Shown here one piece after another: positions 1,183 through 27,764 of a DNA stretch of 64,000 nt. Under the pieces are notes generated by a model that made no database searches, was not told the origin of the DNA, and saw only the letters and a program-made list of their open reading frames with translations. Within the stretch, counting starts at the first letter, position 1; each line of letters opens with the position of its first letter. A program made the translations under genes and the position numbers. Origin of the DNA: Streptomyces sp. MJM8645 (GTDB taxonomy: Bacteria > Actinomycetota > Actinomycetes > Streptomycetales > Streptomycetaceae); the NCBI RefSeq assembly GCF_001625365.1, contig NZ_LJJF01000002.1, positions 1,337,501 to 1,401,500 on the forward strand, read 5' to 3'.

Positions 1183-1203
1183 AGGTCGGGTCCGCCGATC
1201 GGG

Positions 1204-4116: not shown

Positions 4117-4169
4117 GGGCGGCCTCCCTGGCGTCTGCCGGGCTTCGTCCGGCGTCGCGCGGCTACCCG

Positions 4170-4240
4170 GGCCGACGGGGCGGAAACGGCCGACGGGGCG
4201 GAAACGGCCGAGGGTCTGGAAACGGTCGACGGGTCGGAAC
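4170..4240. repeat. Four degenerate 18-bp tandem repeats
   Basis: Units of about 18 bp beginning GGCCGACGGGGCGGAAAC are repeated; the first two are identical and the next two diverged. They lie between the permease start and the stop of the antiporter remnant, where no intact gene is seen. Confidence 0.7.
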
Positions 4241-4248
4241 GCTCGCGT

Positions 4249-4761: not shown

Positions 4762-4929
4762 ACGCGGGGCATGGATGAGGAGCGGGTGGTGGGCCCGGCG
4801 TTGCCCGGGGCGGTGGCCGTGCCCGGGGCGGCGGTCCGTCCGGTCCGGGCCGGACGCGCGACCCGAACCGCCGCGCGGGATGGCGGTCGGGACGACAGGA
4901 CGCCGCCGCGACCGGACCGGGAGCCCTCC

Positions 4930-5352
4930 ATGCCACGGCCGGCCGAGCAGCTCAGCGGGGGTGAGGGGGAGCAGCAAGTCGGCGGCCTGCGCGTCGTGGT
5001 GCGCCGGGAGGGCCGCGTGCGGGTGGTCTCCGTCCACGGCGAACTGGACCACGGCAGCGCGAACGGGCTGTGGGCGGCGCTCTCCCGTCCGGTGGCCGGG
5101 GGCGAGGAACGGATCGTCGTCGATCTCACCGGCCTGTGGTTCTGCGACTCCAGCGGGCTGAACCTGCTGCTGCGCGCACGCCTGGACGTCGAGGCGGCCG
5201 GTCTGCGGCTGGAACTCGTCGGTCCGAGGCCCGTGGTGGCGAGGCTGTTCGCGATCACGGAGGCCGACACGGTGCTGCGCATCCACCCCGACCTCGACGT
5301 CGTTCTGAAGACCGCAGACCCGCCGCAGCGCGGCCGCGACGACGTGGAGTGA
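4930..5352 (+). CDS. STAS-domain anti-sigma factor antagonist
   Basis: A 140-residue single STAS domain: RVVSVHGELDHGSANGLWAA, then the phospho-acceptor signature LTGLWFCDSSGLNLLLRA, with the regulatory Ser in DSSG near residue 75. Such proteins release a sigma factor by binding its kinase/anti-sigma ATPase when dephosphorylated. The next gene, 12 bases downstream, encodes just such an ATPase, so the two probably form an operon and a partner pair for the sigma factor at 6265. The ATG at 4930 was chosen because the conserved domain starts soon after it. Confidence 0.85.
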   Translation: MPRPAEQLSGGEGEQQVGGLRVVVRREGRVRVVSVHGELDHGSANGLWAALSRPVAGGEERIVVDLTGLWFCDSSGLNLLLRARLDVEAAGLRLELVGPRPVVARLFAITEADTVLRIHPDLDVVLKTADPPQRGRDDVE

Positions 5353-5364
5353 GGAGAGCCCGGC

Positions 5365-5892
5365 ATGAAGAGCCCCGGGGAAGGAGCGTTGCCGAAGGAC
5401 TCCGGCCGGAGGGCGACGGCTTCCGGCCGGGGGCCGGGCGGCTCTGACCGACGGCCGGGCGGCTCCGACCGGACCAGGCGGCTCGTGCTGGCCGGCAGTG
5501 AGGGCGCGGTCCAGCGGTCCCGGGACTTCAGCCGGGCGGCGCTGCTCGCCTGGCATTGGCTGCCCGCGCCGGATGCCGGGCGGCTGGCGGCGGCGGAGGA
5601 CGTCCTGCTGATGGTGTCGGAGCTGGTCACCAATGCGTGCCTGTACGCGCCCGGCGGTCCCCGGGAACTGCGGCTGGGCTGGGACGGCGAGCGGCTGCGG
5701 GTGGAGGTCTCGGACGCCAGCCCGGCCGCGCCGCGGCTGCGCCCGTTCGCGGACCCGGGCCGTCCCGGCGGCCACGGCCTGCGGGTGGTGAACCGGCTGG
5801 CGCGCGACTGGGGCTGCCTGCCCGAGGGCGAGGGGAAGCTGGTCTGGCTGGAGGTCGCGCCCCCGGTGGACCCCGGCGCCCTCCAGCTCTGA
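5365..5892 (+). CDS. Anti-sigma regulatory serine kinase (RsbW/HATPase_c_2 type)
   Basis: This 175-residue protein has the GHKL ATPase elements: N-box LMVSELVTNACLYAPGG, G1 box VEVSDAS, and G2 segment GGHGLRVVNRLARDWG. The class binds a sigma factor and phosphorylates the STAS antagonist. The first 40 residues are a low-complexity Gly/Ser/Arg tail containing two near-identical GGSDR.. units and are probably disordered. It follows the STAS gene after 12 bp and precedes the sigma-factor gene. A hairpin overlaps its stop codon, so the sigma gene probably has its own promoter. Confidence 0.85.
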   Translation: MKSPGEGALPKDSGRRATASGRGPGGSDRRPGGSDRTRRLVLAGSEGAVQRSRDFSRAALLAWHWLPAPDAGRLAAAEDVLLMVSELVTNACLYAPGGPRELRLGWDGERLRVEVSDASPAAPRLRPFADPGRPGGHGLRVVNRLARDWGCLPEGEGKLVWLEVAPPVDPGALQL

Positions 5893-5919
5893 CCCTCCGG
5901 GAACCGGGGGGTCAGAGCT
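5885..5919 (+). terminator. Hairpin terminator overlapping the stop codon
   Basis: AGCTCTGACCC pairs perfectly with GGGTCAGAGCT, with an inner CCGG/CCGG stem. It begins in the last codons of the anti-sigma gene and ends that transcript before the sigma gene. Confidence 0.65.
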
Positions 5920-6023
5920 GACTGGGGTGCGGCTGGGGCGGCGGCTCGGTGTCCGGGCCCGGGGCCGCCGGGGCGGTCGTCATCACCGGCGTGGTCCTCG
6001 TCAGCGGCATGATCGTCATACGC

Positions 6024-6049
6024 GTTTATCTGTAGATAAGGCAATAAAC
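6024..6049. promoter_or_regulatory. AT-rich nested inverted repeat upstream of the sigma gene
   Basis: Outer arms GTTTAT / ATAAAC flank inner arms TTATC / GATAA around TGTA. The segment is strikingly AT-rich within the 372-bp gap 5893-6264, which otherwise holds no gene. It is a candidate operator; the protein that binds is unknown. Confidence 0.4.
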
Positions 6050-6061
6050 CGCCCAAAACAT

Positions 6062-6086
6062 GAATTGGAAGTCGTGTGTCGGGTAG
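6062..6086 (+). promoter_or_regulatory. SigB-like promoter of the sigma gene
   Basis: GAAT-N15-GGGTAG resembles the streptomycete SigB consensus GNNT-N14-16-GGGTA(C/T). It lies about 180 bp before the chosen GTG and would allow autoregulation. Confidence 0.35.
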
Positions 6087-6264
6087 AGGACGCATGACGC
6101 GGCCATGGATCGCAGCCAGTCGCGTCCGCACCCTCGCCGGGTGCCACCGGGGCCGTCGCCCGACGGAAGCCGGGCACAGGTCCTCCGGAAAGCAGCCCGT
6201 CGCGTTCGGCGCGAGCCGCTCGCGGTGCCGGGCGTTCGCCCCGATGCCCCAGGAGAGAGCCACC

Positions 6265-7248
6265 GTGTCCACCATGCTGGAAACCGGTCGCCCCACCGAC
6301 CGGACGGCCGCCCCGACGTCCGGCCTGCCGCCCGACGTGCCACCCCGCCCGACGGACGCGCAACTGCGTGCGATGGGCAAGTACGAGGCACGCGAGCTCA
6401 GCGACGCGCTGTTCGAGCGCCTGGCCGCACTCGCCCGCGAAACGCACGCGTACAGCTACGTGCGCGGCACGATCATCGAACTCAACATGCCGCTGGTGCG
6501 CTTCATCGCCGCCCGCTTCCGCCACCGCGCCGAGGACATGGACGACATCCTCCAGGTCGGCACGATCGGCCTGATCAAGGCCGTCGACGGCTACGACCCG
6601 CAGCGCGGCGTCGAGTTCGTCACCTACGCCATCCCCACCATCGCCGGCGAGATCAAGCGCTTCTTCCGCGACACCTCCTGGCCGGTCCGGGTCCCGCGCG
6701 GCATGCAGGAGCTGTACCTGACCGTGGCCCGCGGATCCGACCGGCTGGAGCAGGAACTCGGCCGCCTCCCGCACCCCGACGAGATCGCCGAGGACCTCCA
6801 CATCACCGTCGAGGAGGCCACCGAGGGCCTGGTCGCCGGCCGCGTCTACCGGCCCGACTCGCTGGACGCGCCGCGCGAGCAGGACCTCGACGAGAGCGGC
6901 GGCGCCATGCTCGACCGCCTGGGGGCCTGCGACCCCGGCATCGAACTCGCGGACTTCCGCACCGCTGTGCGCCCCCTGCTCGCCCGCCTGTCGTGCCGCG
7001 ATCAGACGGTGCTCAAACTGCGCTTCTGGGACGGCTGGACCCAGTCCCAGATCGCCGAGCGCATCGGCGTCTCCCAGATGCACGTCTCCCGCCTGCTCAC
7101 CGCCACCCTCACCAGCCTGCGCGAGCAGTTGGAGGACCGCGACGCCCCCGGCTGGGCGGACGAACCCGCAGGTCCGGCCGAACCCGAGGGAGCGGACGAC
7201 TGTGGAGCGGACGACGAGGGAGCCGCTGAACCCGAGGCGCCGCGCTGA
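6265..7248 (+). CDS. SigB/SigF/SigG-family RNA polymerase sigma factor
   Basis: A 327-residue group 3 sigma factor. Region 2 (LVRFIAARFRHRAEDMDD, then GTIGLIKAVDGYDPQRG and FVTYAIPTIAGEIKRFFRD) lies at about residues 65-135, region 3 follows, and region 4 with its helix-turn-helix (WTQSQIAERIGVSQMHVSRLL) at about 258-290. An acidic tail of some 25 residues follows. The GTG at 6265 has AGGAGAG seven bases upstream; an ATG at 6244 is in frame but lacks a site. In this family activity is set by partner switching, and STAS and ATPase genes sit on both sides. It is followed by a strong terminator. Confidence 0.9.
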   Translation: MSTMLETGRPTDRTAAPTSGLPPDVPPRPTDAQLRAMGKYEARELSDALFERLAALARETHAYSYVRGTIIELNMPLVRFIAARFRHRAEDMDDILQVGTIGLIKAVDGYDPQRGVEFVTYAIPTIAGEIKRFFRDTSWPVRVPRGMQELYLTVARGSDRLEQELGRLPHPDEIAEDLHITVEEATEGLVAGRVYRPDSLDAPREQDLDESGGAMLDRLGACDPGIELADFRTAVRPLLARLSCRDQTVLKLRFWDGWTQSQIAERIGVSQMHVSRLLTATLTSLREQLEDRDAPGWADEPAGPAEPEGADDCGADDEGAAEPEAPR

Positions 7249-7272
7249 TTTCCCTCCCTCCCGGGCGTTTCC

Positions 7273-7308
7273 GGCCCCCCGCAGCGGATAGCCGCGCTGC
7301 GGGGGGCC
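7273..7308 (+). terminator. Strong hairpin terminator after the sigma gene
   Basis: GGCCCCCCGCAGCG and CGCTGCGGGGGGCC form perfect 14-bp arms around an 8-base loop, 24 bases after the stop codon. Confidence 0.75.
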
Positions 7309-7351
7309 GCCCTGGGCGAAGCGTGATGAAGCGTGATGAAGGAGGAAGACC

Positions 7352-7510
7352 GTGTCCCCGAAGGTTTCCGACCACGTCCGGATCGAGCGGCTGCCCTTCG
7401 ACGGCACCCCCGACCCGGCGGGCGGCACCGTCACCCCCGGCGCGGACGGCGCCCCCGGCCACGGGCTGCGCCCCGCACCCGCCCGAGCGGATGCGTACCG
7501 TACGGCGTGA
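7352..7510 (+). CDS. Possible small protein, 52 residues
   Basis: A GTG at 7352 follows AAGGAGGAAG at ideal spacing and opens a 52-codon frame encoding [20 protein letters not shown], then a Gly/Ala/Pro-rich tail, ending at 7510, 37 bases before the next STAS gene. No family is recognised. The ribosome site is stronger than those of most neighbours, which is the main support; composition alone would allow chance. Confidence 0.4.
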
Positions 7511-7547
7511 ACCGCCCGACCGGCCGGTAACGGAAGGAGCCGACACC

Positions 7548-7925
7548 ATGACCCGCCGACCACCGACCGGCCGTGCCCCGGCGCCGGGTGCCCCGGGGCC
7601 GGGCGGGTTCACCGCACGGGCCCGGCCGTGGGCCGGCGGCACCGTCCTCGCGCTGGACGGCGAACTCGACCTCGACTCGGTCGGCGCCCTGCACACGGCC
7701 CTCGACGCGGCCCTGGCCGCGCCGCTGACCGTCATCGTGCTCGACTGCGCGGGCCTGGAGTTCTGCGACTCCACGGGGCTCAACGCGATGCTCCGGGCCC
7801 ACGCCCGCGCGGTTGTCGAGGGCAGCCGGCTCGAACTGGCCCGCCCCCGCCCGTTGGTCCTGCGGATGCTCGAACTGACCGGGGCCGTCGAGGTCTTCGT
7901 GCTGCGGGACGCGCCACCGGAGTGA
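7548..7925 (+). CDS. STAS-domain anti-sigma factor antagonist
   Basis: A 125-residue protein with a single STAS domain: [20 protein letters not shown], then [18 protein letters not shown], with the phospho-acceptor Ser in DSTG near residue 75. GGAAGGAG precedes the ATG at 7548 by eight bases, and an upstream in-frame extension is unsupported. It is the second antagonist in the region and lies directly before the HAMP and phosphatase genes, so a plausible job is to be the substrate of the PP2C phosphatase at 8556. This pairing is inferred from position. Confidence 0.85.
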
Positions 7926-8094
7926 ACGCGCGGCCCGCCGCCCCGGGCCCCGGCCCGTCGGACCGACACCTGTCCTGCCTGTCGCCCTTCGCCCTCCGGT
8001 GGCACAGTGGGAGCAGGGCGGCGGCCCGCCGCCCCGGGGTCGGGGCGCCCGGTCGGGCACCCCGGGCGTGCGGCGGACCCGGGCGGTGGAACGG

Positions 8095-8559
8095 ATGGAC
8101 GAGCGGCCGGCACCCGGCGCCGATCCGGCCGAGCAGGCCCTGCGGCACCTGCGCGCCGGGCTGACCGCCGTGCGCGACGGGGACTTCGCCACCCGGCTCG
8201 CGCCCGAGCGGCCCGGCGTGCTCGGGGAGATCGCGACGGTCTTCAACACCATGGCCGACCAGCTGTCCGCGTTCGCCGGCGAGGTGACCAGGGCCGCCCG
8301 GGAGGTCGGCACCGTCGGCAACCTGCGCGGCCAGACCACCGTCAAGGGCATCTCCGGAGTGTGGAAGGACCTCTCCGACAACGTCAACGTGATGGCCTCC
8401 AACCTGACCGGTCAGGTCCGCTCGATGTCCGAGGTGGCGACGGCCAGCGCCTCCGGCCGCCCGGTCGGGGACGCACCGCCGCAGCGCCTGCGTCCGGGCG
8501 AACCCGTCGACACCCGACACCTGCTCGGCCGGATGCGGCACTGGCTGGACACGCCATGA
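8095..8559 (+). CDS. HAMP-domain protein without kinase domain
   Basis: The 154-residue product matches part of the HAMP array of large streptomycete hybrid histidine kinases: [36 protein letters not shown], then [19 protein letters not shown] and [14 protein letters not shown]. No membrane, kinase or receiver domain follows. It may be a stand-alone coiled-coil adaptor or a truncated descendant of a kinase. The stop overlaps the start of the phosphatase gene by four bases (ATGA), implying coupled translation and a joint role in signalling to the phosphatase. The start is uncertain: ATG 8095 was chosen, but GTG codons at 7999 or 8086 are possible. Confidence 0.65.
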
Positions 8560-10862
8560 CCGCCGGGCATGAGCCCTCGGACACCACGGCCCGGGCCCTC
8601 GCCGAAACCGTGCGCCGGCTCCAGAGCACCGCCGCCCGGGTGCGAGCCGACGCTCGCGCCCGCGCCGCCGTCGACCTGGCCACCGGGATCCTGGCCGAAC
8701 GCCTCGGCCTGCTCCCCGCCGAAGCCGCCGCCCGACTCGCCAGGCTCGCCCGGGAGGCCGCCGTGCCCGTGGCGGCCCTGGCCGCCGACATCGCCGGGGT
8801 GTCGGGCCAGGCACGCGGCCAGCCACCCGGGCCGCTCGCGGGCACAGCCGACCCCGTGACGCCCGCGCTGGCCGCCGTCGCCGATCTGCAAGGCGCCGCC
8901 GAAGCCGTCCTGGAGCAGACGGCGGACGCGCTCGGCGCGCACGCCGTCGCGCTGTGGCTGCGGCTGCCGGGCGGTGTGCTCGCCCTCGCTGCGCACGCCG
9001 GGTTGCCCGCCGCCGAGGCCGACGCCTGGAGCCGGGTGCCACCCGGCGTCCCCACCCCGGCCCAGCGCGTCGTGGTCGGCGGCGCGGAGCTGTGGCCCGG
9101 CGATCTGGAGACCGCAGGCCCGTCGGTGGGGGTCGGCTCGGCCCGGGCCGTCCTCCCGCTGATCGACGCAGGCCGCCGCCGGGGCGCGCTGGAGGTCCTG
9201 TGGCCCGCACCCGGCCCCGCCCCCGCACCCGGCCCCGTGCTCGGCGGGCCCCAACGCCGTCGGCTCCACGCCCTCGCCGACCTCTGCGCGACCCTCCTGG
9301 TCGAAGCCGGCGCCGCCCCCGCCCCGGCCCCCACCCCCGTCCCCGTCCCGCCCGGCGACGACACCGCCCTCCTGGAGGGCCTGCCCACCCCGGCCCTGCT
9401 GCTGGAGCCGGTCGTCCGCCGAGGAGAGGTCGCCGACTTCACGCTCCTGCGGACCAACGCGCACTTCCGCGATCCACTGGGCCGCCCCCGGGACACGCTG
9501 GAGGGCACCTCGCTCCTGGAGGTCTACCCGGCCGCGTGCGCCGGCGGCCTCTTCGAACGGCTGATCCGGGTGCACGAGACCGGAGTCCCGTTGCCCGGCG
9601 AGCAGGTCCGGCTGGTCTTCCAGCAGGGCGGACTCGTGCTTCCCGCCACCGTCCTGCTCGCGGCGGCCCCCGTCGGCGGCCGCGTGCTGGTCGGCTGGCA
9701 GACGGAGACCGCGCGGGCCGGTGAGGCCGAGCAGAGCGCCCTGCTGCGCCAGGCCCAGCGGTTGGCCCGGGTGGCCGGGTTCGAGGAGTGCCCGGCCGAC
9801 GGCCGGATCCGCTGGAGCGACGGCCTGCACGAGATCTACGGGCTGCCGCCCGACACCGACCCGGTCCCGCTGGCCCAGCTCGCCCGGCACGCCCACCCCG
9901 ACGACGAGCCCGCGATCCGGCGCCTGCTGGACACCGTCCAGCGCCGGCACCGGACCGCCTCCGCCGTCGTCCGCCTGGCCCACCAGGACGGCACCCACCG
10001 GTACACCCGGGTGATCGCCGAGCCCCTCCTCGACGACCACGGCCGGCTCACCGGGGTGCGCGGTGCCTTCCACGACGTGTCCGCCCAGCACCGTACGGAG
10101 GTCGCGCTCGGGGCGACCCGGGCGCGCCTGGCCGACAGCGAGCAGGAGACCGCCGACAGCGAGCGACTGGCGCTGCGGCTCCAGCAGGCCCTCCTGCCCG
10201 CCGCTCCGCCCCCGCTCGGCCCGGCCGGCCTGCGGGCCGCCGTCCGCTACCGCCCCGCCGCCCAGCACGACCGGGTCGGCGGCGACTGGTACGACGTGCT
10301 GCTGCTGCCCGACAAGCGGGTGCTGCTCACCGTCGGGGACGTCGCCGGGCACGGCGTCGGCGCGGCCACCGGCATGGTCGCCCTGCGGCACGTGCTGCGC
10401 GGCCTCGCCGTCACCGGGGCCGGCCCGGCCCGGATGCTGGAGTGGGCCAACACCGTCGCCCTGCGCGAACCCGGCCAGATCACCGCGACGGCCGTCTGCG
10501 TGCTCATCGACCCGGCCGTCGGCGAACTGCGCTGGGCGCGGGCCGGGCACCTGCCCCCGATCCTGGTCGGAGCGGACGGCGCCCAGGTGCTGCCGCTGCC
10601 GCACGGCGTGCTCCTCGGCGCCCTGGACGACGCCCGGTACGAGGAGCACACCGCCCACCTGCCGCCGGGCGACGTCCTGGTCCTCTACACCGACGGCCTG
10701 GTCGAACGCCGGGACCGTCCGGTCGAGGAGTCCGTCGACCAGCTGATCCGCGCCGCCGGAGCCCCCGGCCCCGACCTGGAGCGCTACCTCGACCGGCTGC
10801 TGGAGCTCAGCCCCGCCGACACCGACGACGACACCTGCCTGATCGCCGTCCAGAGCCGGTAG
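8556..10862 (+). CDS. ANTAR-GAF-PAS-PAS-PP2C (SpoIIE-type) serine phosphatase
   Basis: A 768-residue multidomain protein. An ANTAR-like helix bundle (AAVDLATGILAERLGL) is at about 36-66, a GAF domain at about 100-250, a PAS domain at about 268-385, a second PAS (FEECPADGRIRWSDGLHEIYG) at about 398-515, a short coiled linker, and a SpoIIE PP2C domain at about 538-768 with metal-binding GGDWYD (577), VGDVAGHG (595) and the terminal TDDDTCL. Such phosphatases reactivate STAS antagonists and so free sigma factors. Its ATG overlaps the HAMP gene stop. An ANTAR domain usually binds RNA, so its presence at the N-terminus of a phosphatase is notable. Confidence 0.85.
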   Translation: MTAGHEPSDTTARALAETVRRLQSTAARVRADARARAAVDLATGILAERLGLLPAEAAARLARLAREAAVPVAALAADIAGVSGQARGQPPGPLAGTADPVTPALAAVADLQGAAEAVLEQTADALGAHAVALWLRLPGGVLALAAHAGLPAAEADAWSRVPPGVPTPAQRVVVGGAELWPGDLETAGPSVGVGSARAVLPLIDAGRRRGALEVLWPAPGPAPAPGPVLGGPQRRRLHALADLCATLLVEAGAAPAPAPTPVPVPPGDDTALLEGLPTPALLLEPVVRRGEVADFTLLRTNAHFRDPLGRPRDTLEGTSLLEVYPAACAGGLFERLIRVHETGVPLPGEQVRLVFQQGGLVLPATVLLAAAPVGGRVLVGWQTETARAGEAEQSALLRQAQRLARVAGFEECPADGRIRWSDGLHEIYGLPPDTDPVPLAQLARHAHPDDEPAIRRLLDTVQRRHRTASAVVRLAHQDGTHRYTRVIAEPLLDDHGRLTGVRGAFHDVSAQHRTEVALGATRARLADSEQETADSERLALRLQQALLPAAPPPLGPAGLRAAVRYRPAAQHDRVGGDWYDVLLLPDKRVLLTVGDVAGHGVGAATGMVALRHVLRGLAVTGAGPARMLEWANTVALREPGQITATAVCVLIDPAVGELRWARAGHLPPILVGADGAQVLPLPHGVLLGALDDARYEEHTAHLPPGDVLVLYTDGLVERRDRPVEESVDQLIRAAGAPGPDLERYLDRLLELSPADTDDDTCLIAVQSR

Positions 10863-17365: not shown

Positions 17366-18244
17366 TCAGGGCGATGGGGCCGAACTCGGCGTCGAACGCG
17401 GACGGGCCGCATGCTCGGGCGGCTGCGCAGGCGAAGAGGGGAGTGACGCCGAGGGCGACGGTGAGGGCCCGCCGGCCTCGGCGACGGCTTCGAGCAACGC
17501 GCCCTCGAACGCCTCCTTCGAGGCCATGGCCCCACCGGCACGCCCGTCGAGCTGCTTGCCGTTGAGCAGCATGGCCGGCGTCCCCCGGAATTTGTGGTCG
17601 CGGAACTCCTCCGTGACAGTGCGCACCCAAGCCTCGTGCGTTCCCTTGTTGACGCATTGCTCAAAAGCCGGTGTCCGCAGTCCGGGGACATTTTCGGCGA
17701 GCCGAAGGAGTTCCGCACGGTCGGCGAACCTGTCGTTCTTCTCCTCGGGTTGGTTGGAGAAGAGGACGGCATGGTAATGGGCGAATTTGGCCAGGTCCTG
17801 CGCGCACGCGACGGCGTTGGCCGCTCGCAGCGAACCCTTCCCGCCAAGGCCGGCGTCAATGGCCGCGAGGGGGTGGTACTGCAGGCGCAGCCGTCCGGAC
17901 TGCACGTACTTCTGCAGTACCTCGCCGAGGCGCGCCTCGGCCGCCTGGCAGGCGGGGCAGCGGAAGTCCTCGTAGACCTCCAGGGTGGCCGGAGCCTTCT
18001 CCGCCCCCACCTCGATGGCCTTGCCTCCGGCCACCGTTCCGAGGGGCGCCAGGGCGGGCCGGTCGTCCTGGGACCGGTACGTCTGCACGACGACCCCTGT
18101 GATCACCGCAGAGGTCACGACGGCGGGCACGAGGCCGAATGCCATGAAACGGCGTCGACGCTTCGCGAGAATTTCCCGTGCCGCGCGTTCCGCGCGCCTG
18201 CGCTCATGTGCAATCAGCTTTCCATTTCGATTTGCCCGGCTCAT
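17366..18244 (-). CDS. Membrane-anchored DsbA-like thiol oxidoreductase
   Basis: A 292-residue protein: a basic cytosolic N-terminus (RAEIL..KRRRR), one membrane anchor (FGLVPAVVTSAVITGVVV, about 37-54), then a DsbA/thioredoxin-like domain starting APATLEVYEDFRCPACQA with the redox motif CPAC near residue 97, a helical insert (GSLRAANAVACAQDLAKFAHYHAVL), and the cis-Pro loop FRGTPAMLLNG. The C-terminus is a Ser/Pro-rich tail. It should oxidise or isomerise disulfides outside the membrane. GAGGGGAAC precedes the ATG. It lies downstream, on the same strand, of a similar gene and of the giant Cys-rich surface protein. Confidence 0.85.
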   Translation of the reverse strand: MSRANRNGKLIAHERRRAERAAREILAKRRRRFMAFGLVPAVVTSAVITGVVVQTYRSQDDRPALAPLGTVAGGKAIEVGAEKAPATLEVYEDFRCPACQAAEARLGEVLQKYVQSGRLRLQYHPLAAIDAGLGGKGSLRAANAVACAQDLAKFAHYHAVLFSNQPEEKNDRFADRAELLRLAENVPGLRTPAFEQCVNKGTHEAWVRTVTEEFRDHKFRGTPAMLLNGKQLDGRAGGAMASKEAFEGALLEAVAEAGGPSPSPSASLPSSPAQPPEHAARPRSTPSSAPSP

Positions 18245-18481
18245 GTTCCCCTCGTTCGCTGGTTGGTTTCTGAACGTTGAACCCGAATTATTCGTTGCGG
18301 GTTCTGCCCACGGAGGGGACGGAATACCTCTCCGCCCTTCCGCGGCTACCGGAAGAATTACTCCGGGCCGCCGTTTCGCAGTGGCCCTCAGCCGCCAGGT
18401 CGGTCCTGACCGGGAGTGACGCGCGGCGCTGAACCGGGCGGGGGTGTTCCGTCGCGTGACAACGGCCGAGGCGACTGGTCG

Positions 18482-19414
18482 TCAGTCGTCGGAATCGTGT
18501 GATGACTCCCTGGCGTCGGAAGCCGCCGCCGTACGCCCGGACGCTTCGGCCGTCCTCGCCCTGCTGGGCGAGGCGGACGCCGAGGCGGAGGGGGCCGCGT
18601 GCGCCGAGCCCGAGGCGGTGGCGGCCGGGCCCGTCGAGGCGGGCGGGTGCGACGGGGTGCTCACCGGCGGGTGGAAGCCGGGGTCCTTCAGCGCGAGGTC
18701 CTCGACCGTCTTCCACAGCTTGGTGGCAGCTCCGTCACCGTCGATTTCGATCCGGTCGCCGTTGAGCACGGCCACCGGTGCGTCCGTGTGGAACTGTTTC
18801 GCGAACGTGCCGCTCTCGCGGCTCACCCAGCCCGCGTGCGTGCCGTCGTCGACGCACCGGTCGAATGCCGCGGACCGCAGCTCGCTCACCCGGTCGGCGA
18901 GCGAGCGCAGGCCCTGCTTCGCGTCCGGGTCCTGCTTGCCGGCCGCGACGAGCACCTCGCGGAAGGCGGCGAACTTTCCCGCGTCCTGGGCACACGCCGC
19001 CGCGTTGGCGGCCTGGGCCGAGGTCTTGCGGCCGTCGGTCGTCACCGGGTGGTATTGGATGACCAGGCGATTCTCGGCGACCAGCTGGCGGAGTGTCGGG
19101 TCGAACCGCTCGGCGAACTTCCGGCAGGCGGCGCAGTCGTAGTCCTCGTAGACCACCAGCGTGGCGGGTGCCTGCTGGTAGCCGACCGGGATCGAGTCCC
19201 CGCTGGACCCGGACGGGGGTTCGGCGTGGTCGGGTCCGAACCCCGAACGGAACAGGAATCCGCCGCCGACGACCACGGCCGCCACGGTGACGGCCAGCAG
19301 GACGCGCTTGCGGGTCCGGTGCGCCGACCCGGTCCGGACGGATTGCCGCCGATCGGACGGCGCGGGGGAGTCATCTGTCGGATTCGGGGCATCCTCGTCG
19401 TCCCAGAAGGTCAT
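18482..19414 (-). CDS. Second membrane-anchored DsbA-like oxidoreductase
   Basis: A 310-residue paralogue of the preceding gene: an acidic then basic N-terminus, one membrane segment (RVLLAVTVAAVVVGGGFLF), and the domain opening APATLVVYEDYDCAACRKFA with CAAC as redox motif, the helical part TSAQAANAAACAQDAGKFA, and the cis-Pro-like region altered to FHTDAPVAVLNGD. A Ser/Ala/Pro-rich tail follows. The start at 19414 (MTFWDDED) was preferred over an extension into the AT-rich leader. The two paralogues share the same layout but differ in their CxxC dipeptide (PA against AA), suggesting different redox roles. Confidence 0.85.
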   Translation of the reverse strand: MTFWDDEDAPNPTDDSPAPSDRRQSVRTGSAHRTRKRVLLAVTVAAVVVGGGFLFRSGFGPDHAEPPSGSSGDSIPVGYQQAPATLVVYEDYDCAACRKFAERFDPTLRQLVAENRLVIQYHPVTTDGRKTSAQAANAAACAQDAGKFAAFREVLVAAGKQDPDAKQGLRSLADRVSELRSAAFDRCVDDGTHAGWVSRESGTFAKQFHTDAPVAVLNGDRIEIDGDGAATKLWKTVEDLALKDPGFHPPVSTPSHPPASTGPAATASGSAHAAPSASASASPSRARTAEASGRTAAASDARESSHDSDD

Positions 19415-19568
19415 GGGATTCGTTCCAATCGGTTCGACACTCGACGGCCGGATGTCGAGTGATTGCCTTGTTCCCCCCCCGTTTATAGACATGAGCAGAG
19501 CGATGAGCTGCTCACCGTACCGATCGTCAATCAGCAATTATGCGAACGCAGCAACGCCACGACAGGGC

Positions 19569-19600
19569 GGTGGCCCGGGAACGGGTGTTCCCGGGCCACC
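19569..19600 (-). terminator. Strong terminator after the giant surface-protein gene
   Basis: GGTGGCCCGGGAAC and its exact complement form 14-bp arms around GGGT, 35 bases beyond the stop codon at 19635. Confidence 0.75.
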
Positions 19601-19634
19601 GGTCGGGGCCGATCAGACCCCGGTCAGGCTGCGA

Positions 19635-22600
19635 TCACTCGCTCCTCACTCCCTTCCGGTTCCGCCGAACCCTGACGACCACGACCAGCAGGGCGCCGAG
19701 GCCCGCCAGGAGCGCGCTCGTGAGGGTGAAGGGCACCACAGCGGCGCCGGTGTGCGGCAGGACCCCGCCGTTCGGGCCGGAGACGTTGCCGCCACCCGGC
19801 TGCGGGTAGCCGGCCGGCTCCGGTCCGTGGCCGACCTCCATCCCGTCGCCGTGACCGCCGTGGCCGTGGCCGTCACCCGGCTCGGGCTTGTGCTCGTTGC
19901 ACTTGTCCCTGTCGCAGGGCGGGGCGCAGCGTGCGATCGCGGAGGACGGGGGAGTGGTGATCGGCGGGGTACCCGGCGCGGCGTTCGGCGGCAGGAAGGA
20001 GGCCGTCACGGTGTTGGTCGTGTCCTCCGTGATGACGCTGGAGCAGAAGAACATCTTCGCCTGCCCGGAGGCCAGACTGAACGTCCCCGCAGCGACGACG
20101 CAGGAGGCCTCCTGCTGGTCGTTCAGTGTGATGCCGCTGATGTCGACTGTGCCGGTGTTGGTGACGGTGATCCGCCAGTACGCCTTGCACTTGTCGCGGT
20201 CACAGTCCTCCTTGCCGTCGTTCTTGTGGAGAGTCGTCTCCTTGCCCCACGGACCGGACCCGCCCTCGGCGCAGTTGCCGGGGACGTCGGACTGGCAGAC
20301 CTCCTTGTTGATGGTCAGCGAGGGAACGTTCGCCGTGGCCTCGGAGGGCGGGGTGGTGATGGGCGTCCCACCGGGACCGGGGAACGTGGCCGCGACGGTG
20401 TTCGTCGTCGACTCCGTCAGGTGGGAGCTGGAGCAGAAGATCTGCTTGTTCGCTCCTGCTGCGAGGTTGAAGGTGCCGGCGGCTGTGGCGCATGCCGGGG
20501 TGACGGCGTCGGTCAGGGTGATGCCGTTGATGTCGACGCCGTCGGTGTTGGTGACGGTGATGCGCCAGTAGGCGGTGCCGCCCGGTGTGACGGTGGTGAT
20601 GCCGGCCCAGGGGCCGTTGCCGCCGGGCCCGCAGTCGGCGGCGGTTGCCGAGGTGCAGACCTCCTTGACGATGGCCAGCGACGGAACGTTGGCGGTCGCT
20701 TCCGACGGCGGTGTGGTGATGGGGGTGCCGCCGGGGCCGGGGAAGGTCGCCGTGACGACGTTGGTGGTCGAGGTGGTGACGTTGGGGAGGTTGCAGAAGA
20801 TCTGCTTGTTCGCTCCCGGCGTCAGGTTGAAGGTGCCGGCCGCCGTAACGCAACCCGGGGTGACGGTGTCGGTCAAGGTGATGCCGTTGATGTCGACGCC
20901 GTCGGTGTTGGTGACGGTGATGCGCCAGTAGGCGGTGCCGCCGGGGGCGACGGTGGTGATGCCGGCCCAGGGGCCGTTACCACCGGGCCCGCAGTCGGCG
21001 GCGGTTGTCGAGGTGCACACCTCCTTGACGATCGCGAGGGAGGGAACGTTGGCTGTTGCTTCCGACGGCGGTGTGGTGATGGGGGTCCCGCCAGGGCCGG
21101 GGAAGGTGGCCGTCACGACGTTGGTGGTGGACTGGGTGACGTTGGGGAGGTTGCAGAAGATCTGCTTGTTCGCTCCCGGCGCCAGGTTGAAGGTGCCGGC
21201 GGCTGTGGCGCATGCCGGGGTGACGGCGTCGTTGAGCGTGATGTCGTTGATGTCGACGCCGTCGGTGTTGGTGACGGTGATGCGCCAGTAGGCGGTGCCG
21301 CCCGGTGTGACGGTGGTGATGCCGGCCCAGGGGCCGTTGCCGCCGGGCCCGCAGTCGGCGGCGGTTGCCGAGGTGCAGACCTCCTTGACGATGGCCAGCG
21401 ACGGAACGTTGGCGGTCGCTTCCGACGGCGGTGTGGTGATGGGGGTGCCGCCGGGGCCGGGGAAGGTCGCCGTGACGACGTTGGTGGTCGAGGTGGTGAC
21501 GTTGGGGAGGTTGCAGAAGATCTGCTTGTTCGCTCCCGGCGTCAGGTTGAAGGTGCCGGCGGCTGTGGCGCATGCCGGGGTGACGGTGTCGGTCAGGGTG
21601 ATGCCGTTGATGTCGACGCCGTCGGTGTTGGTGACGGTGATGCGCCAGTAGGCGGTGCCGCCGGGGGCGACGGTGGTGATGCCGGCCCAGGGGCCGTTAC
21701 CACCGGGCCCGCAGTCGGCGGCGGTTGTCGAGGTGCACACCTCCTTGACGATCGCGAGGGAGGGAACGTTGGCTGTTGCTTCCGACGGCGGTGTGGTGAT
21801 GGGGGTCCCGCCAGGGCCGGGGAAGGTGGCCGTCACGACGTTGGTGGTGGACTGGGTGACGTTGGGGAGGTTGCAGAAGATCTGCTTGTTCGCTCCCGGC
21901 GCCAGGTTGAAGGTGCCGGCGGCTGTGGCGCATGCCGGGGTGACGGCGTCGTTGAGCGTGATGTCGTTGATGTCGACGCCGTCGGTGTTGGTGACGGTGA
22001 TGCGCCAGTAGGCGGTGCCGCCGGGCGGGAGGGTGGTGACGCCGGCCCAGGGGCCGCTACCGCCGGATCCGCAGTCGGCGGCGGTTGCCGAGGTGCAGAC
22101 CTCCTTGACGATCGCGAGGGAGGGAACGTTGGCTGTTGCTTCCGACGGCGGTGTGGTGATCGGAGGTGTGCCGCCCGGCCCCGGGAAGGTGGCCGTCACC
22201 ACGTTGGTGGTCGAGGTGGTGACGTTGGGGAGGTTGCAGAAGATCTGCTTGCTGGTTCCTGCCGTCAGGTTGAAGGTGCCGGCCGCCGTAACGCAACCCG
22301 GGGTGACGGTGTCGGTCAAGGTGATGCCGTTGATGTCGACGCCGTCGGTGTTGGTGACGGTGATGCGCCAGTAGGCGGTGCCGCCGGGGGCGACGGTGGT
22401 GATGCTGGCCCAGGGGCCGTTGCCGCCGGATCCGCAGTCGGCGGCGGTTGTCGAGGTGCAGACCTCCTTGTTGATGGTCAGCGAGGGAACGTTGGCCGTG
22501 GCCTCGGAGGGCGGTGTGGTGATCGGAGGTGTGCCGCCGGGGCCGGGGAAGGTCGCGGTGACGACGTTGGTGGTGGACTGGGTGACGTTGGGGAGGTTGC

Positions 22601-25600
22601 AGTAGATCTGTTTGTCTGCTCCCGGCGTCAGGTTGAAGGTGCCGGCGGCTGTGGCGCATGCCGGGGTGACGGTGTCGGTCAGGGTGATGCCGTTGATGTC
22701 GACGCCGTCGGTGTTGGTGACGGTGATGCGCCAGTAGGCGGTGCCGCCGGGCGGGAGGGTGGTGATGCCGGCCCAGGGGCCGTTGCCGCCGGGCCCACAG
22801 TTCGCGGCTGTGGTGGAGGCACAGACCTCCTTGACGATCGTCAGGGAAGGAACGTCAACTGCTGCCTCGGAGGGCGGCGTGGTGATGGGGGTCCCGCCGG
22901 GGCCGGGGAAGGTGGCCGTCACTACGTTTGTGGTCGAGGTGGTGACGTTGGGGAGGTTGCAGAAGATCTGTTTGTCTGCTCCCGGCGCCAGGTTGAACGT
23001 GCCGGCCGCCGTCACGCAGCCCGCGGTGACGGGGTCGGCCAGGGTGATGCCGTTGACCGGGACCGCACCGGTGTTGGTGACGGTGATCCGCCAGTACGCG
23101 GTGCCGCCGGGGGCGACGGTGGTGATGCTGGCCCAGGGGCCGCTACCGCCGGATCCGCAGTCGGCGGCGGTTGCCGAGGTGCAGACCTCCTTGACGATCG
23201 CCAGCGACGGAACGTCAGCCGTTGCTTCCGACGGTGGTGTGGTGATGGGATGGCCACCGGGGCCGGGGAAGGTGGCTGTCACCACGTTGGTGGTCGAGGT
23301 GGTGACGTTGGCGAGGTCGCAGAAGACCTGCTTGTTCGCCCCCGTCGCCAGGTTGAACGTTCCGGCGGCCGTCACGCACGCCGGGGTCACGGCATCGGTC
23401 AGGGTGATGCCCGCGATGGGGACCGTCCCGGTGTTGGTGACGGTGATCCGCCAGTACGCGGTGGCACCGGACGGGATGATGGTCGTTTTGGCCCAGGGGC
23501 CGCTACCGCCGCTGGCGCAGTCGGCCGCAGTGGTCGAGGTGCAGACCTCTTTGAGGATCGTCAGTGACGGAGCGTCGACGGTGGCCTCGGCGGGCGGGGT
23601 GGTGATGGGGGTGCCGCCGGGTCCGGGGAAGGTCGCGGTGACGACGTTGGCGGTGGCCTGGGTGACGTTGGGGAGGTTGCAGAAGATCTGCTTGTTCGCT
23701 CCTGCCGCCAGGTTGAAGGTGCCGGCGGCCGTGGCGCACGCCGGGGTGACGGGGTCGGTCAGGGTGATGCCGGTGATGTCGCTGGGGCCGTCGTTGGTGA
23801 CGGTGATCCGCCAGTACGCGGTGCCACCGGACGGAACCGTGGTGACGCCGGCCCAGGGGCCGCTACCGCCGGGCCCGCAGTCGGCGGCGACTGCCGAGGT
23901 GCACACTTCCTTGACGATCGCCAGCGAGGGAACGTTGGCGGTTGCTTCGGAGGGCGGTGTGGTGATCGGAGGTGTGCCGCCGGGTCCGGGGAAGGTGGCC
24001 GTGACGACGTTGGTAGTGGGCTTCGTGACGTTGGGGAGGTTGCAGAAGATCTGCTTGTTCGCTCCCGCCGCCAGATCGAACGTGCCGGCGGCTGTGGCGC
24101 ATGCCGGGGTGACGGCGTCGTTGAGCGTGATGCCGGAGATTTTCACCGCACCGGTGTTGGTGACGGTGATCCGCCAGTAGGCGGTACCGCCGGGGGCGAC
24201 GGTGGTGACGCTGGCCCAGGGGCCGTTGCCGCCAGGCCCGCAGTCACCCGCGGTTGCCGAGGTGCAGACCTCCTTGACGATCGCCAGCGACGGAACGTCG
24301 ACTGTGGCCTCGGCGGGCGGGGTGGTGATGGGGGTGCCGCCGGGGCCGGGGAAGCTCGCCGTGACGACGTTCGTCGTCGAGGTGGTGATGCCGGGGAGGT
24401 TGCAGAAGACCTGGGTGCTCGCCCCTGCCGGGAGGTTGAACATGCCGGCGACCGTGGCGCACGCCGGGGTGACGGCATCCGTCAGGGTGATGCCGGAGAT
24501 GTCGACGCCGTCGGTGTTGGTGACGGTGATCCGCCAGTACGCGGTGGCGCCGGGCGGAACGGTGGTGACGCCGGCCCAGGGGCCGTTACCACCCTCGATG
24601 CAGTTGGCGACCGTTGCCGAGGTGCAGACCTCCTTGACGATGGCCAGCGACGGCACGTTGGCGGTCGCTTCGGACGGCGGTGTGGTGATGGGGGTGCCGC
24701 CGGGTCCGGGGAAGGTCGCCGTGACGACGTTGGTGGTGGGCTTGGTGACGTTGGGGAGGTTGCAGAAGACCTGTCTGTTGGCTCCCGCCGCCAGGTTGAA
24801 CGTTCCTGCCGCTGTGGCGCACGCGGGGGTCACGGCATCCGTCAGGGTGATGCCGTTGATGTCGACGCCGTCGGTGTTGGTGACGGTGATGCGCCAGTAG
24901 GCGGTGCCGCCGGGCGGGAGGGTGGTGATGCCGGCCCAGGGGCCGTTGCCGCCGGGCCCGCAGTCACCCGCGGTTGCCGAGGTGCAGACCTCCTTGACGA
25001 TGGCCAGCGACGGCACGTTGGCGGTCGCTTCCGACGGCGGTGTGGTGATGGGGGTGCCGCCGGGCCCCGGGAAGGTCGCCGTGACGACGTTCGTCGTCGG
25101 GGCGGTGACGTCGGGGAGGTTGCAGAAGACCTGTCTGTTGGCCCCCGCCGCCAGGTTGAACGTTCCTGCCGCTGTGGCGCACGCGGGGGTGACGGCATCC
25201 GTCAGGGTGATGCCCGTGACGGGGACCGTCCCGGGGTTGGTGACGGTGATGCGCCAGTAGGCCGTACCGCCCGGTGCGACCGTGGTGAGACTCGCCCAGG
25301 GGCCGCTGCCGCCGGGCCCGCAGTCACCCGGGTTCACCGAGGTGCAGACCTCCTTGAGCACGGTCAGCTCAGGCTTGCAGGACGGCCCGGGAGTCACCTG
25401 GAGGGTGACGGTGTTGGACGTGACCGGGGCCATGCCGTTGGTGGTCGCTGTGGCCTGGTCGCTCACCGAGGTGACGGTGCAGTCCTCGCTGACCTTGGTC
25501 TGGTAGCAGACCTGCGGCGGGTCGCCGACGAACGTCACCTGCATCTTCGGCTGGTTGTCCGGAGTGAACGACGCCCCGCTGATCAGGGTGAGGTTGGCGA

Positions 25601-27764
25601 CGACCTGGATCGGTGAGGCGCTGATCGGGACGGACGAGATGTCGGCTTTCATGGTGGTGGTGTCGAAGGGGAACGTGCCCAGGGCCGCGCCGTTCGAGTC
25701 CTTCACGGTCACCGACGACTGCGCGAAGTTGACCGTCGTGGGATCGATGTCGACGAGGCTCACCGTGCCGTACGACGTCACGTGCCCCGTCTTGCCGTCG
25801 CAGTAGTACGCGCTGGGGTCGAGGCTGCCCTGCGCCTTGGTCTTGAGGCACGGGGAGGCGCCGGTGGTCGGGTCCATCGAGAACAGGAACCCGACGTCGC
25901 CGAGGCTGTACTTGCACTGGCCGTCGTAGGCGAACCCGTAGGGGCTGGTGTAGCCGCCGTCGACGTTGGGCGGGCCGTTGACGACGCCCGCGTTGCCGAA
26001 CGAGCCGCACGGCGACTGAGTGGTCCAGTCGTAGCAGTACTCGGTGCTGTTCAGGGTCGGCGTGTTGCCCAGGTAGATCCAGTACGGGAACTCGGTGTCC
26101 AGGTGCCCGTTGGGGGCGGTGATGGTCAGCGGGATCTGGAAGTTGCTCTCGCCCGAGGCCACGTTGGTGCTGACCAGCGTCTGTAGGCCCGGTGCCGCGG
26201 CGATCGGGTTTCCGACGAAGTCGAAGCAGACCACGGTGCCCACCGGCGGGTTGGTCTCCGCGAGCACGCCGCCGACCACCGAGCAGACGCCGATGGCGGT
26301 GCCTGCGGAGTCGTACGTGGCGAAGACGTTGTCCGCGCGAGCGGCGCCGCCGGCCGTCGGAGTGACCAGGACCTTGGGCGTGGTCCAGCCGGTGCAGGCC
26401 GCGTTCGTCGTCGGGTCGAAGCAGGACATCACCGTGGGATTGGGCACCGGTTCGTTGTCGCTGACGTAGATCTTGCCGTTGATGACCGTCATCGTGCCCG
26501 AGTAGTCCCCGGTGAAGCCGCCCTGGCCCTCGTTGGGGGGCAGGCCGATGGAGAAGGTCCCGCAGGACGCGTTGGCGGTGGGGTCGTAGCAGAGGATCTC
26601 ACCGGTGCCGGACACGGCGTAGATCAGACCGTTCGGCGCTTCCACCACACCGCCGACGACACTGCCGGAGCCGGTTTGCAGAGGCACGAAGCCGCAGCTC
26701 TTCTGCGCCTGGAGGTCGATGCAGCCGACGCCGATCTCGGCGAAGGTCACCCGGCTGACGGCCGCGTAGTACAGCTTGGACCCGGACTGTACGTAGGTGG
26801 GCGTGCGGGTGCTGCCGAGGTCCCCACTCGTCCCGCCGACGGCCGCGGAGTTGAGCGGCTGGGGCCAGGACGCCGGTGTGCCGTCCGGCAGGGGGCAGGG
26901 ACCGTTCGTCAGCAGGTCCGTGCAGACCACGGCAGCCTGGCTGGACGCGCCGTGGTGGTAGATGTTCCACACCTCGGGCGTGGGCATGCCGTTGATGGTG
27001 GCGGTATAGAGGATCGGCGTGAAGCCGTCGCCGCCGGTGGCGGTGTTGATGGGGGTGAACGGCGGCGGGATCTGCACCACCTGACCGGTCGCCGGGGACG
27101 CGAACACCGGGTTGGTCGCCCGGATCGCGTTGGTGGCCGCCCCCTGGTCCGTCGACGTGAACGAGGTGCCGGCGTTGGTGGACCACTGCCTGCTGAAGCC
27201 CGGAGGCACCTTCAGCGAGTTCGGCACGTAGGACTGGGTCTGCGGGGTGCTGCCCGGGCCGCCCTGGATCACGTCGGTGATCACGGTGTTGGCGGGGGCG
27301 CCGTCCGGGTTGGTGGCCGAGACCACCCACTGGACGGTGTCGCCCTGGGTGGTGGTGCTGCTGCTGCCGGTCGCCAGGTCGGTCCCGGTCTTCTCCAACG
27401 TCACCGGCTGCTGCCGGCCCGCCGGCTTCCCGGTGGAGGGGGCACGCGGGGTGGCCGGGGCGGCGTGTGCCGGCAGTGTGAGCGAGGTGACGGTCGCGGC
27501 GACCGCCACCAGCACGGCGAGCGCGGCGCGGAAGGCCCGCAGCGCCTCGGCGGCGGAGCCTTCGCGTGGTGGCAGGAGCGCGACGGCGGTCCTGCGGGCC
27601 AGTCGCCCGATGCTCGCGACGATGCCGAGCAGTCCGGCCACTGCCGCGCGTGCCTCGGGTCCGTACGGGGACCGGGCGCGCAGCGCCCCGCCCTGCCGTC
27701 GTACGCCGGATGGGGTTGCACGGCGGCGGTCCCGGGCCGTGCGTGTGGTCGCACAGCGCCTCAT
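19635..27764 (-). CDS. Giant LPXTG-type surface protein with 15 Cys-rich DUF11-like repeats
   Basis: The 2,709-residue product starts at ATG 27764 (AAAGGAA seven bases upstream). A long N-terminus ends in a hydrophobic signal core (LAVLVAVAATVTSLTLPAHA, about 83-101). A DUF11-like module (about 118-180) and a region of about 450 residues with recurring short units such as VVCFDFVGN and MSCFDPTTNAACTGW, perhaps a beta-propeller, follow. From about 798 there are 15 repeats of about 120 residues (SLAIVKEVCTS ... GGTAYWRITVTN ... GITLTDAVTPAC ... QIFCNLPNVT), nearly all with four Cys, about 60 in all. The C-terminus has a His/Gly linker, LPHTG (2669-2673), a hydrophobic helix and RVRRNRK, a sortase signal. 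No sortase gene is in the window. It probably forms a long cell-wall stalk; adhesion is inferred. Confidence 0.9.
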   Translation of the reverse strand: MRRCATTRTARDRRRATPSGVRRQGGALRARSPYGPEARAAVAGLLGIVASIGRLARRTAVALLPPREGSAAEALRAFRAALAVLVAVAATVTSLTLPAHAAPATPRAPSTGKPAGRQQPVTLEKTGTDLATGSSSTTTQGDTVQWVVSATNPDGAPANTVITDVIQGGPGSTPQTQSYVPNSLKVPPGFSRQWSTNAGTSFTSTDQGAATNAIRATNPVFASPATGQVVQIPPPFTPINTATGGDGFTPILYTATINGMPTPEVWNIYHHGASSQAAVVCTDLLTNGPCPLPDGTPASWPQPLNSAAVGGTSGDLGSTRTPTYVQSGSKLYYAAVSRVTFAEIGVGCIDLQAQKSCGFVPLQTGSGSVVGGVVEAPNGLIYAVSGTGEILCYDPTANASCGTFSIGLPPNEGQGGFTGDYSGTMTVINGKIYVSDNEPVPNPTVMSCFDPTTNAACTGWTTPKVLVTPTAGGAARADNVFATYDSAGTAIGVCSVVGGVLAETNPPVGTVVCFDFVGNPIAAAPGLQTLVSTNVASGESNFQIPLTITAPNGHLDTEFPYWIYLGNTPTLNSTEYCYDWTTQSPCGSFGNAGVVNGPPNVDGGYTSPYGFAYDGQCKYSLGDVGFLFSMDPTTGASPCLKTKAQGSLDPSAYYCDGKTGHVTSYGTVSLVDIDPTTVNFAQSSVTVKDSNGAALGTFPFDTTTMKADISSVPISASPIQVVANLTLISGASFTPDNQPKMQVTFVGDPPQVCYQTKVSEDCTVTSVSDQATATTNGMAPVTSNTVTLQVTPGPSCKPELTVLKEVCTSVNPGDCGPGGSGPWASLTTVAPGGTAYWRITVTNPGTVPVTGITLTDAVTPACATAAGTFNLAAGANRQVFCNLPDVTAPTTNVVTATFPGPGGTPITTPPSEATANVPSLAIVKEVCTSATAGDCGPGGNGPWAGITTLPPGGTAYWRITVTNTDGVDINGITLTDAVTPACATAAGTFNLAAGANRQVFCNLPNVTKPTTNVVTATFPGPGGTPITTPPSEATANVPSLAIVKEVCTSATVANCIEGGNGPWAGVTTVPPGATAYWRITVTNTDGVDISGITLTDAVTPACATVAGMFNLPAGASTQVFCNLPGITTSTTNVVTASFPGPGGTPITTPPAEATVDVPSLAIVKEVCTSATAGDCGPGGNGPWASVTTVAPGGTAYWRITVTNTGAVKISGITLNDAVTPACATAAGTFDLAAGANKQIFCNLPNVTKPTTNVVTATFPGPGGTPPITTPPSEATANVPSLAIVKEVCTSAVAADCGPGGSGPWAGVTTVPSGGTAYWRITVTNDGPSDITGITLTDPVTPACATAAGTFNLAAGANKQIFCNLPNVTQATANVVTATFPGPGGTPITTPPAEATVDAPSLTILKEVCTSTTAADCASGGSGPWAKTTIIPSGATAYWRITVTNTGTVPIAGITLTDAVTPACVTAAGTFNLATGANKQVFCDLANVTTSTTNVVTATFPGPGGHPITTPPSEATADVPSLAIVKEVCTSATAADCGSGGSGPWASITTVAPGGTAYWRITVTNTGAVPVNGITLADPVTAGCVTAAGTFNLAPGADKQIFCNLPNVTTSTTNVVTATFPGPGGTPITTPPSEAAVDVPSLTIVKEVCASTTAANCGPGGNGPWAGITTLPPGGTAYWRITVTNTDGVDINGITLTDTVTPACATAAGTFNLTPGADKQIYCNLPNVTQSTTNVVTATFPGPGGTPPITTPPSEATANVPSLTINKEVCTSTTAADCGSGGNGPWASITTVAPGGTAYWRITVTNTDGVDINGITLTDTVTPGCVTAAGTFNLTAGTSKQIFCNLPNVTTSTTNVVTATFPGPGGTPPITTPPSEATANVPSLAIVKEVCTSATAADCGSGGSGPWAGVTTLPPGGTAYWRITVTNTDGVDINDITLNDAVTPACATAAGTFNLAPGANKQIFCNLPNVTQSTTNVVTATFPGPGGTPITTPPSEATANVPSLAIVKEVCTSTTAADCGPGGNGPWAGITTVAPGGTAYWRITVTNTDGVDINGITLTDTVTPACATAAGTFNLTPGANKQIFCNLPNVTTSTTNVVTATFPGPGGTPITTPPSEATANVPSLAIVKEVCTSATAADCGPGGNGPWAGITTVTPGGTAYWRITVTNTDGVDINDITLNDAVTPACATAAGTFNLAPGANKQIFCNLPNVTQSTTNVVTATFPGPGGTPITTPPSEATANVPSLAIVKEVCTSTTAADCGPGGNGPWAGITTVAPGGTAYWRITVTNTDGVDINGITLTDTVTPGCVTAAGTFNLTPGANKQIFCNLPNVTTSTTNVVTATFPGPGGTPITTPPSEATANVPSLAIVKEVCTSATAADCGPGGNGPWAGITTVTPGGTAYWRITVTNTDGVDINGITLTDAVTPACATAAGTFNLAAGANKQIFCSSSHLTESTTNTVAATFPGPGGTPITTPPSEATANVPSLTINKEVCQSDVPGNCAEGGSGPWGKETTLHKNDGKEDCDRDKCKAYWRITVTNTGTVDISGITLNDQQEASCVVAAGTFSLASGQAKMFFCSSVITEDTTNTVTASFLPPNAAPGTPPITTPPSSAIARCAPPCDRDKCNEHKPEPGDGHGHGGHGDGMEVGHGPEPAGYPQPGGGNVSGPNGGVLPHTGAAVVPFTLTSALLAGLGALLVVVVRVRRNRKGVRSE
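19930..25371 (-). repeat. Array of 15 tandem repeats of 357-363 bp
   Basis: Tandem coding repeats inside the giant gene. The units at the far C-terminal end of the array (last copy, near 19930-20320) and N-terminal end (first copy, near 25000-25371) are the most diverged, while those at 20575-22740 are close to identical, the usual signature of ongoing internal duplication. The last copy carries an insertion with extra Cys (KEDCDRDKCKAYW). Confidence 0.9.
20575..22014 (-). repeat. Recent 720-bp tandem duplication within the repeat array
   Basis: Positions 20575-21294 and 21295-22014 are identical base for base in line-by-line reading, except for a cluster of differences at about 20841-20876. 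That patch instead matches the unit at about 22281-22320, as expected for gene conversion. Each 720-bp unit holds two protein repeats. Confidence 0.85.

Follow-up and report, generated by a model that had tools for sequence, protein, structure and literature searches.

A giant cysteine-rich, sortase-type surface protein with a predicted isopeptide and disulfide stalk beside two DsbA-like genes in Streptomyces sp. MJM8645

The window, by which we mean the whole stretch of 64,000 nucleotides of Streptomyces sp. MJM8645 DNA that was analysed, is part of a 1.5-Mb contig in a genome of 9.23 Mb. In a collection of named genomes the single relative found is Kitasatospora griseola, whose contig is that of G111 (identity over 15,339 bases); G111 falls in the genus of the window, so that the source organism is very likely a Kitasatospora. 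It carries a very large gene for a surface protein of the sortase type and two genes coding for DsbA-like proteins (Table 1). The first-pass annotation of this DNA had described a 2,709-residue LPHTG protein followed on the same strand by two DsbA-like proteins (CPAC and CAAC), and both this arrangement and its coordinates proved correct; the gene with the CAAC motif comes first and the one with CPAC second.

Table 1. Computed features of the giant surface protein locus (positions are those of the window)
Feature	Position	Strand	Basis or remark
Giant sortase-type surface protein gene	19635..27764	-	2,709 aa; ATG at 27764 preceded by AAAGGAA
Ig-like domain, N-terminal, residues about 122-221	27102..27401	-	Inferred from the strands of the AF2 model
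Beta-propeller head, residues 235-634	25863..27062	-	AF2 model, VIA-align and Cys conservation
Stalk of 15 tandem DUF7617 repeats	19935..25379	-	Pfam PF24593, E 0, 15 stretches; two-repeat AF2 model
LPHTG motif, hydrophobic stretch and basic tail	19638..19760	-	Gram_pos_anchor match
15-bp perfect hairpin, likely terminator	19568..19601	-	33 bases after the stop codon of the giant gene
DsbA-like protein, CAAC, likely membrane anchor	18482..19537	-	Start TTG 19537 or ATG 19414; Thioredoxin_4 E 1.7e-17
DsbA-like protein, CPAC, likely membrane anchor	17366..18244	-	Thioredoxin_4 E 1.2e-27, DSBA E 1.4e-11

The giant could also start at a later codon, a simple gene caller having picked position 27641. 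Its 84 cysteines amount to 3.1% of the residues, against 0.81% (116 of 14,405 residues) in the 48 other proteins that a crude gene caller delimits in the window. The LPHTG motif lies 41 residues from the carboxyl terminus, and all features of a sortase anchor (LPxTG, hydrophobic stretch, basic tail) are present, with a marginal profile score just above the cut-off of Gram_pos_anchor (E 4.1e-4, 20.7 bits against 20). A PF04203 search of the genome gives six sortase matches, every one on another contig than the window and none near the giant gene. An antisense open frame of 1,426 aa (19287-23567, + strand) overlaps the repeat array; it reflects the high-GC repeats and is probably no gene.

The AF2 model of the head (pLDDT 84.8) shows a propeller that VIA-align superposes at Z 23.6 and rmsd 3.1 over 286 aligned residues, and the best structural matches indicate that the predicted propeller is probably seven-bladed. 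Neither Pfam nor NCBIfam holds a family that matches residues 105-798 at E up to 0.1. The head is an undescribed, unnamed domain. Its cysteine pairs include C348/C357, C392/C401, C448/C457 and C577/C586. Twenty cysteines are invariant over 34 aligned rows, 16 of them before the first DUF7617 core and four inside it, and five pairs of invariant cysteines have the spacing C-x8-C. The alignment (A1) joins the window to 33 of 48 head-matching loci; seven rows are second copies, leaving 27 genes, and the beginning of the head is missing from many rows. A further alignment (A2) contains one duplicate row, and locus L046 was omitted from the head search as a duplicate of L039, to which it is identical over 15,339 bases. 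The head sequence stands beside DUF7617 in 38/38 other genomes examined among 42 (genomes G153, G094, G047 and G043 were left out of the search), with the end part only in G183. Since this association holds in all 38, the conserved head invites work on its structure and its ligand.

The repeats of the stalk each start with KEVC, which recurs 15 times at a spacing of 120-121 residues, and the DUF7617 profile covers them in 15 stretches with 1440.8 bits against a cut-off of 27.4. A 2025 survey (PMC12617251) lists DUF7617 as a predicted CnaA-like isopeptide domain, reports that 10 new Pfam families were built from what a program for finding isopeptides had detected, and tabulates Lys684, Asp740 and Asn778 for the DUF7617 example A0A495X870. 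In the stalk, K9, D61 and N97 are invariant in 15/15 repeats of the giant and in 34/34 alignment rows (27 distinct genes). Lys is separated from Asp and from Asn by 52 and 88 positions in the window repeat, by 55 and 91 in six single-domain relatives, and by 56 and 94 in the tabulated example. The AF2 model of two repeats (pLDDT 93.7) is Ig-like and places K9 within strand 5-12, D61 at the end of strand 54-61 and N97 within strand 95-104. The position and invariance of these residues suggest that each stalk domain most likely holds a Lys9-Asn97 isopeptide with Asp61 as catalyst. An aside of the first-pass annotation, that the Lys of the repeats could bond to Asn or Asp, thus finds support in the published prediction for the family (PMC12617251).

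VIA-align of the two-repeat model gives the carboxyl-terminal domains of AgI/II (Z 8.4-8.9, rmsd 4.9-5.7), among them 2wza (Z 8.5, rmsd 5.4, 201 residues aligned), an entry whose title names two intramolecular isopeptide bonds, and also transglutaminase barrels up to Z 10.2 at rmsd about 11. Foldseek lists mainly generic Ig-like folds. Since other Ig-like folds score as high as isopeptide domains or above them, the repeat fold is by itself not specific. A sequence search for solved structures of the repeats gives none at E up to 0.1. The survey names the CLIPPER structure 9IFR, whose absence from the 50 VIA-align matches listed excludes nothing. With the DUF7617, CLIPPER (DUF11) and CLIPPER_2 (DUF7507) domains of the survey (PMC12617251), the giant shares the order Lys-Asp-Asn, a similar spacing and the Ig-like fold, and DUF7617 and its relatives likewise form tandem stalks in long exported proteins. 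The giant is set apart from the surveyed DUF7617 family by its 15 copies with four invariant cysteines each.

These cysteines, C12, C20, C67 and C86, occur in every repeat (60/60 core positions), so that the 15 repeats and roughly 60 cysteines first reported for the array hold to the full number. Of the additional cysteines, one stands directly before repeat 1 and five lie within and after repeat 15. The AF2 model places C12 at the end of the first strand and C20 at that of a short helix, with C67 within a helix and C86 within a strand. C12-C20 and C67-C86 are most likely two disulfides in each domain. A related protein of genome G014 (locus L045) is informative on their independence: after the head and one DUF7617 it continues with 21 units best matched by DUF7507, at a spacing of 109-110 residues, and 20 of the 21 have exactly two cysteines, 13 residues apart, the last unit having one more. 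By eye, this pair matches the second pair of DUF7617 without the first. Since the second pair stands alone in these units, C12-C20 and C67-C86 look like independent bonds.

The cysteines of the giant could instead be metal ligands or free thiols, a reading that we judge very improbable. It is consistent with the motif CDRDKC, found once in repeat 15 and once ahead of the anchor, and with the odd cysteine count: without Cys4 the giant has 83, so that at least one must be unpaired or bonded to another molecule. The cysteines of this exported protein nevertheless sit at fixed, conserved positions, one pair occurs without the other in G014, CxxC is absent from the 14 regular repeats, and related isopeptide domains are reported with disulfides in the survey (PMC12617251), which all argues for disulfides. 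The two CDRDKC sites (residues 2521-2526 and 2617-2622, window 20187-20204 and 19899-19916) lie one in an insertion of repeat 15 and one directly after that repeat, unlike anything in the regular repeats.

The first-pass annotation had proposed a stalk stiffened by disulfides where Gram-positive stalks usually rely on isopeptides, and had called such a stalk unusual. The repeats are indeed probably disulfide-bonded, but not in place of isopeptides. According to the survey, 41.3% of the isopeptide domains of Actinomycetota also have disulfides (PMC12617251). Disulfides alongside isopeptides are therefore a known combination, and the stalk of the giant is no disulfide-based alternative to isopeptides. 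Together with the sortase pili that depend on MdbA (PMC5478893, PMC9974433), this figure also weakens the claim of unusualness. The DUF7617 identity of the repeats and their invariant Lys, Asp and Asn therefore point to isopeptides plus disulfides rather than disulfides alone; most likely, every repeat of the stalk is held by three bonds, one isopeptide and two disulfides. Predicted isopeptide residues and cysteine pairs would thus meet in one conserved repeat, with three likely cross-links per 120 residues.

DUF7617 scores above the cut-off in 43 of 297 genomes of the bacterial family and in 28 of 70 of the genus. Arrays of at least three copies occur in five genomes of the genus: that of the window (G000), G137, G131, G117 and G199. 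The 15 copies of the giant are the most in one open frame among the genomes searched; G137 also has 15 matches, spread over two contigs whose ends fall within the array. The nine intact loci with a single DUF7617 have frames of 850-908 residues, and none of them (0/9) shows LPxTG near the carboxyl terminus. LPDTG is found 41-42 residues from the end in G199, G014 and G137, and LPxTG is not found in the frames of the array-bearing relatives G131 (L040, 2222-7000) and G117 (L041, 6908-11311), so that anchoring may vary within the family of the giant. Stalk modules seem exchangeable beneath the conserved head, one propeller head being carried by two stalk types, DUF7617 arrays or DUF7507 arrays. 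The frame that places a giant-type head and first DUF7617 on a DUF7507-like stalk spans 341-10048 of L045. The protein at 257-8662 of locus L039 (K. griseola) aligns beyond the head too and contains a masked run. Spread on plasmids was considered and set aside: the head with the first repeat has no match in 72,556 plasmid records. The literature search found DUF7617 in one paper, and no paper on Streptomyces DUF11 proteins with a propeller, nor on Kitasatospora sortase LPXTG proteins.

The architecture of the giant would thus comprise a signal peptide, an Ig-like domain, a propeller head with cysteine pairs, 15 CnaA-like DUF7617 domains and an LPHTG anchor. Sortase-anchored fibrillar adhesins likewise have a signal peptide, a head, a tandem isopeptide stalk and a sortase motif; the giant departs from them in that its head is a beta-propeller with conserved cysteine pairs and no Pfam or NCBIfam match. 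From these features we infer adhesion and anchoring to the wall. We have good confidence in the explanation as a whole, in which the giant is a sortase-anchored fibrillar adhesin with isopeptides and disulfides, served by general oxidation, and the DsbA-like pair is accessory; the two array-bearing relatives without LPxTG lower this confidence very slightly. The type of system is ordinary; the long stalk and the double chemistry in each repeat are well supported, and the novelty lies in the undescribed head.

Both DsbA-like proteins score well above the cut-off of PF13462 (97.5 and 64.6 bits against 23.2) and carry CxxC (CPAC and CAAC). The nearest solved structures of the CPAC protein are 4k6x, 4ihu and 4jr6. 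With actinobacterial DsbA/Thioredoxin_4 proteins (4k6x, 4jr6, 4ihu and MdbA 4z7x) the pair shares the thioredoxin-family sequence, CxxC and a likely membrane anchor; it differs by CAAC instead of CPxC in one protein and by both being long-branch paralogues of the genus-wide DsbA. In the tree both fall on long, unplaced branches (1.2 and 2.55). Of the matches listed for the CAAC protein in 60 relatives, none exceeds 41% identity, and a search of the 72,556 plasmid records gives two weak matches, none above 60% identity or 80% coverage. By its sequence the CAAC protein is a divergent paralogue.

The first-pass annotation had read the pair as dedicated to the oxidative folding of the stalk. Spelled out, this reading makes the two proteins oxidase and isomerase partners of the giant, acquired or retained here for an exceptional load of about 40 disulfides. 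The position of the genes invites this reading: they adjoin the giant gene on a shared strand, with gaps of 97 or 220 bp and then 237 bp that are compatible with an operon. The long branches of both proteins and the isolation of the CAAC protein among the 60 relatives might also fit specialisation, and the giant has the highest DUF7617 count in one frame of the genomes searched, G137 reaching 15 over two contigs. Against it stands the hairpin between the giant and DsbA-like genes. The 111-base stretch that holds it folds with a z of -6.28, 0/200 shuffles being as stable, and a hairpin lies 3' of the stop codon of the giant in 5/5 array-bearing loci. The arm GGTGGCCCGGGA is common to G117, G137, G199 and the window; in G131 the arm differs and the hairpin is about 100 bases off. 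The hairpin has no T-run and is therefore only a likely terminator; actinobacterial terminators often lack T-runs. The terminator scan, which finds six terminator-like sites against 6.0 expected, demands a T-run and therefore does not list this hairpin, and the same promoter/terminator scan gives no sigma-70-like site. The DsbA-like pair probably belongs to a transcription unit separate from that of the giant, as judged from the recurrent hairpin.

The relatives argue in the same direction. In 42 other genomes, the DsbA-like (Thioredoxin_4) matches listed include none in the 30 kb around DUF7617, or up to the contig end where that comes first; the closest of those listed is 33 kb away in G082. 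Both genes of the window score above the weakest matches listed; several contigs in this search are short (13 kb in G131, 6.5 kb in G199), and G036, G173 and G226, which have only sub-cut-off DUF7617, were left out. A tblastn search with both proteins gives no match in 19 DUF7617 loci from 17 genomes. Beside the giants of G131, G117, G137 and G199, no called gene has a match among the DsbA-like and other neighbouring proteins of the window; these array-bearing relatives keep the giant without the pair. The genome of the window, in turn, has four further Thioredoxin_4 matches, two of which have a VKOR gene no more than about 0.2 kb away, and a third (L077) by eye among apparent trp genes and lgt. 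The co-occurrence check thus finds relatives of the repeat protein regularly without DsbA-like neighbours, and with none in 42 genomes among the matches listed, none in 19 loci and a hairpin in between, the proposal of a dedicated pair loses its support. We consider it unlikely, and a dedicated operon was rejected as the leading reading on neighbours, hairpin and co-occurrence. A pair restricted to this lineage and evolving fast, with the CPAC protein as oxidase and the CAAC protein as isomerase, could have been recruited because 15 triply cross-linked repeats overload DsbA/VKOR; this too is unlikely, and if true the stalk, with three cross-links in each repeat, would have folding enzymes of its own that are peculiar to the strain.

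The neighbouring DsbA-like genes are most likely mere neighbours and not private helpers of the giant. Adjacency to a DsbA gene argues only weakly for dedicated folding partners. In several order-level relatives (L068-L076) two adjacent DsbA-like genes sit amid apparent trp genes and lgt, where the genome of the window has one (L077). These tandem pairs were considered as a source of the window pair and set aside, as their stretches contain no match to the giant and the tree placed neither protein.

We privilege the view that the disulfides of the giant are most likely made by the general DsbA/VKOR machinery of the cell, by analogy with actinobacterial pili. According to two reports (PMC5478893, PMC9974433), MdbA and VKOR serve sortase pili in Actinomyces oris, and MdbA does so in Corynebacterium diphtheriae, where TsdA can replace it. 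These pili are likewise actinobacterial sortase-anchored proteins that need DsbA-like disulfide formation for folding; the giant differs in having no sortase nearby. The giant would be exported, and its head and stalk would then be oxidised while each stalk domain closes its own Lys-Asn bond. A sortase encoded elsewhere in the genome would link it to the wall. Its disulfides would come from the general machinery, with the neighbouring genes as divergent accessory paralogues, in a division of labour like that of the MdbA systems of A. oris and C. diphtheriae (PMC5478893, PMC9974433). The bonds and their pairing, the transcription units and the acting oxidase are what we infer here from the computed features, namely domains, predicted fold, anchor motif, invariant residues, recurring hairpin and missing DsbA neighbours.

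Elsewhere in the window, reading of the translations points to a regulatory cluster of sigma factor, anti-sigma and STAS-like proteins at 4930-10862, and to an IS200/IS605-like divergent gene pair coding for TnpA-like and TnpB-like proteins at 53225-54906.
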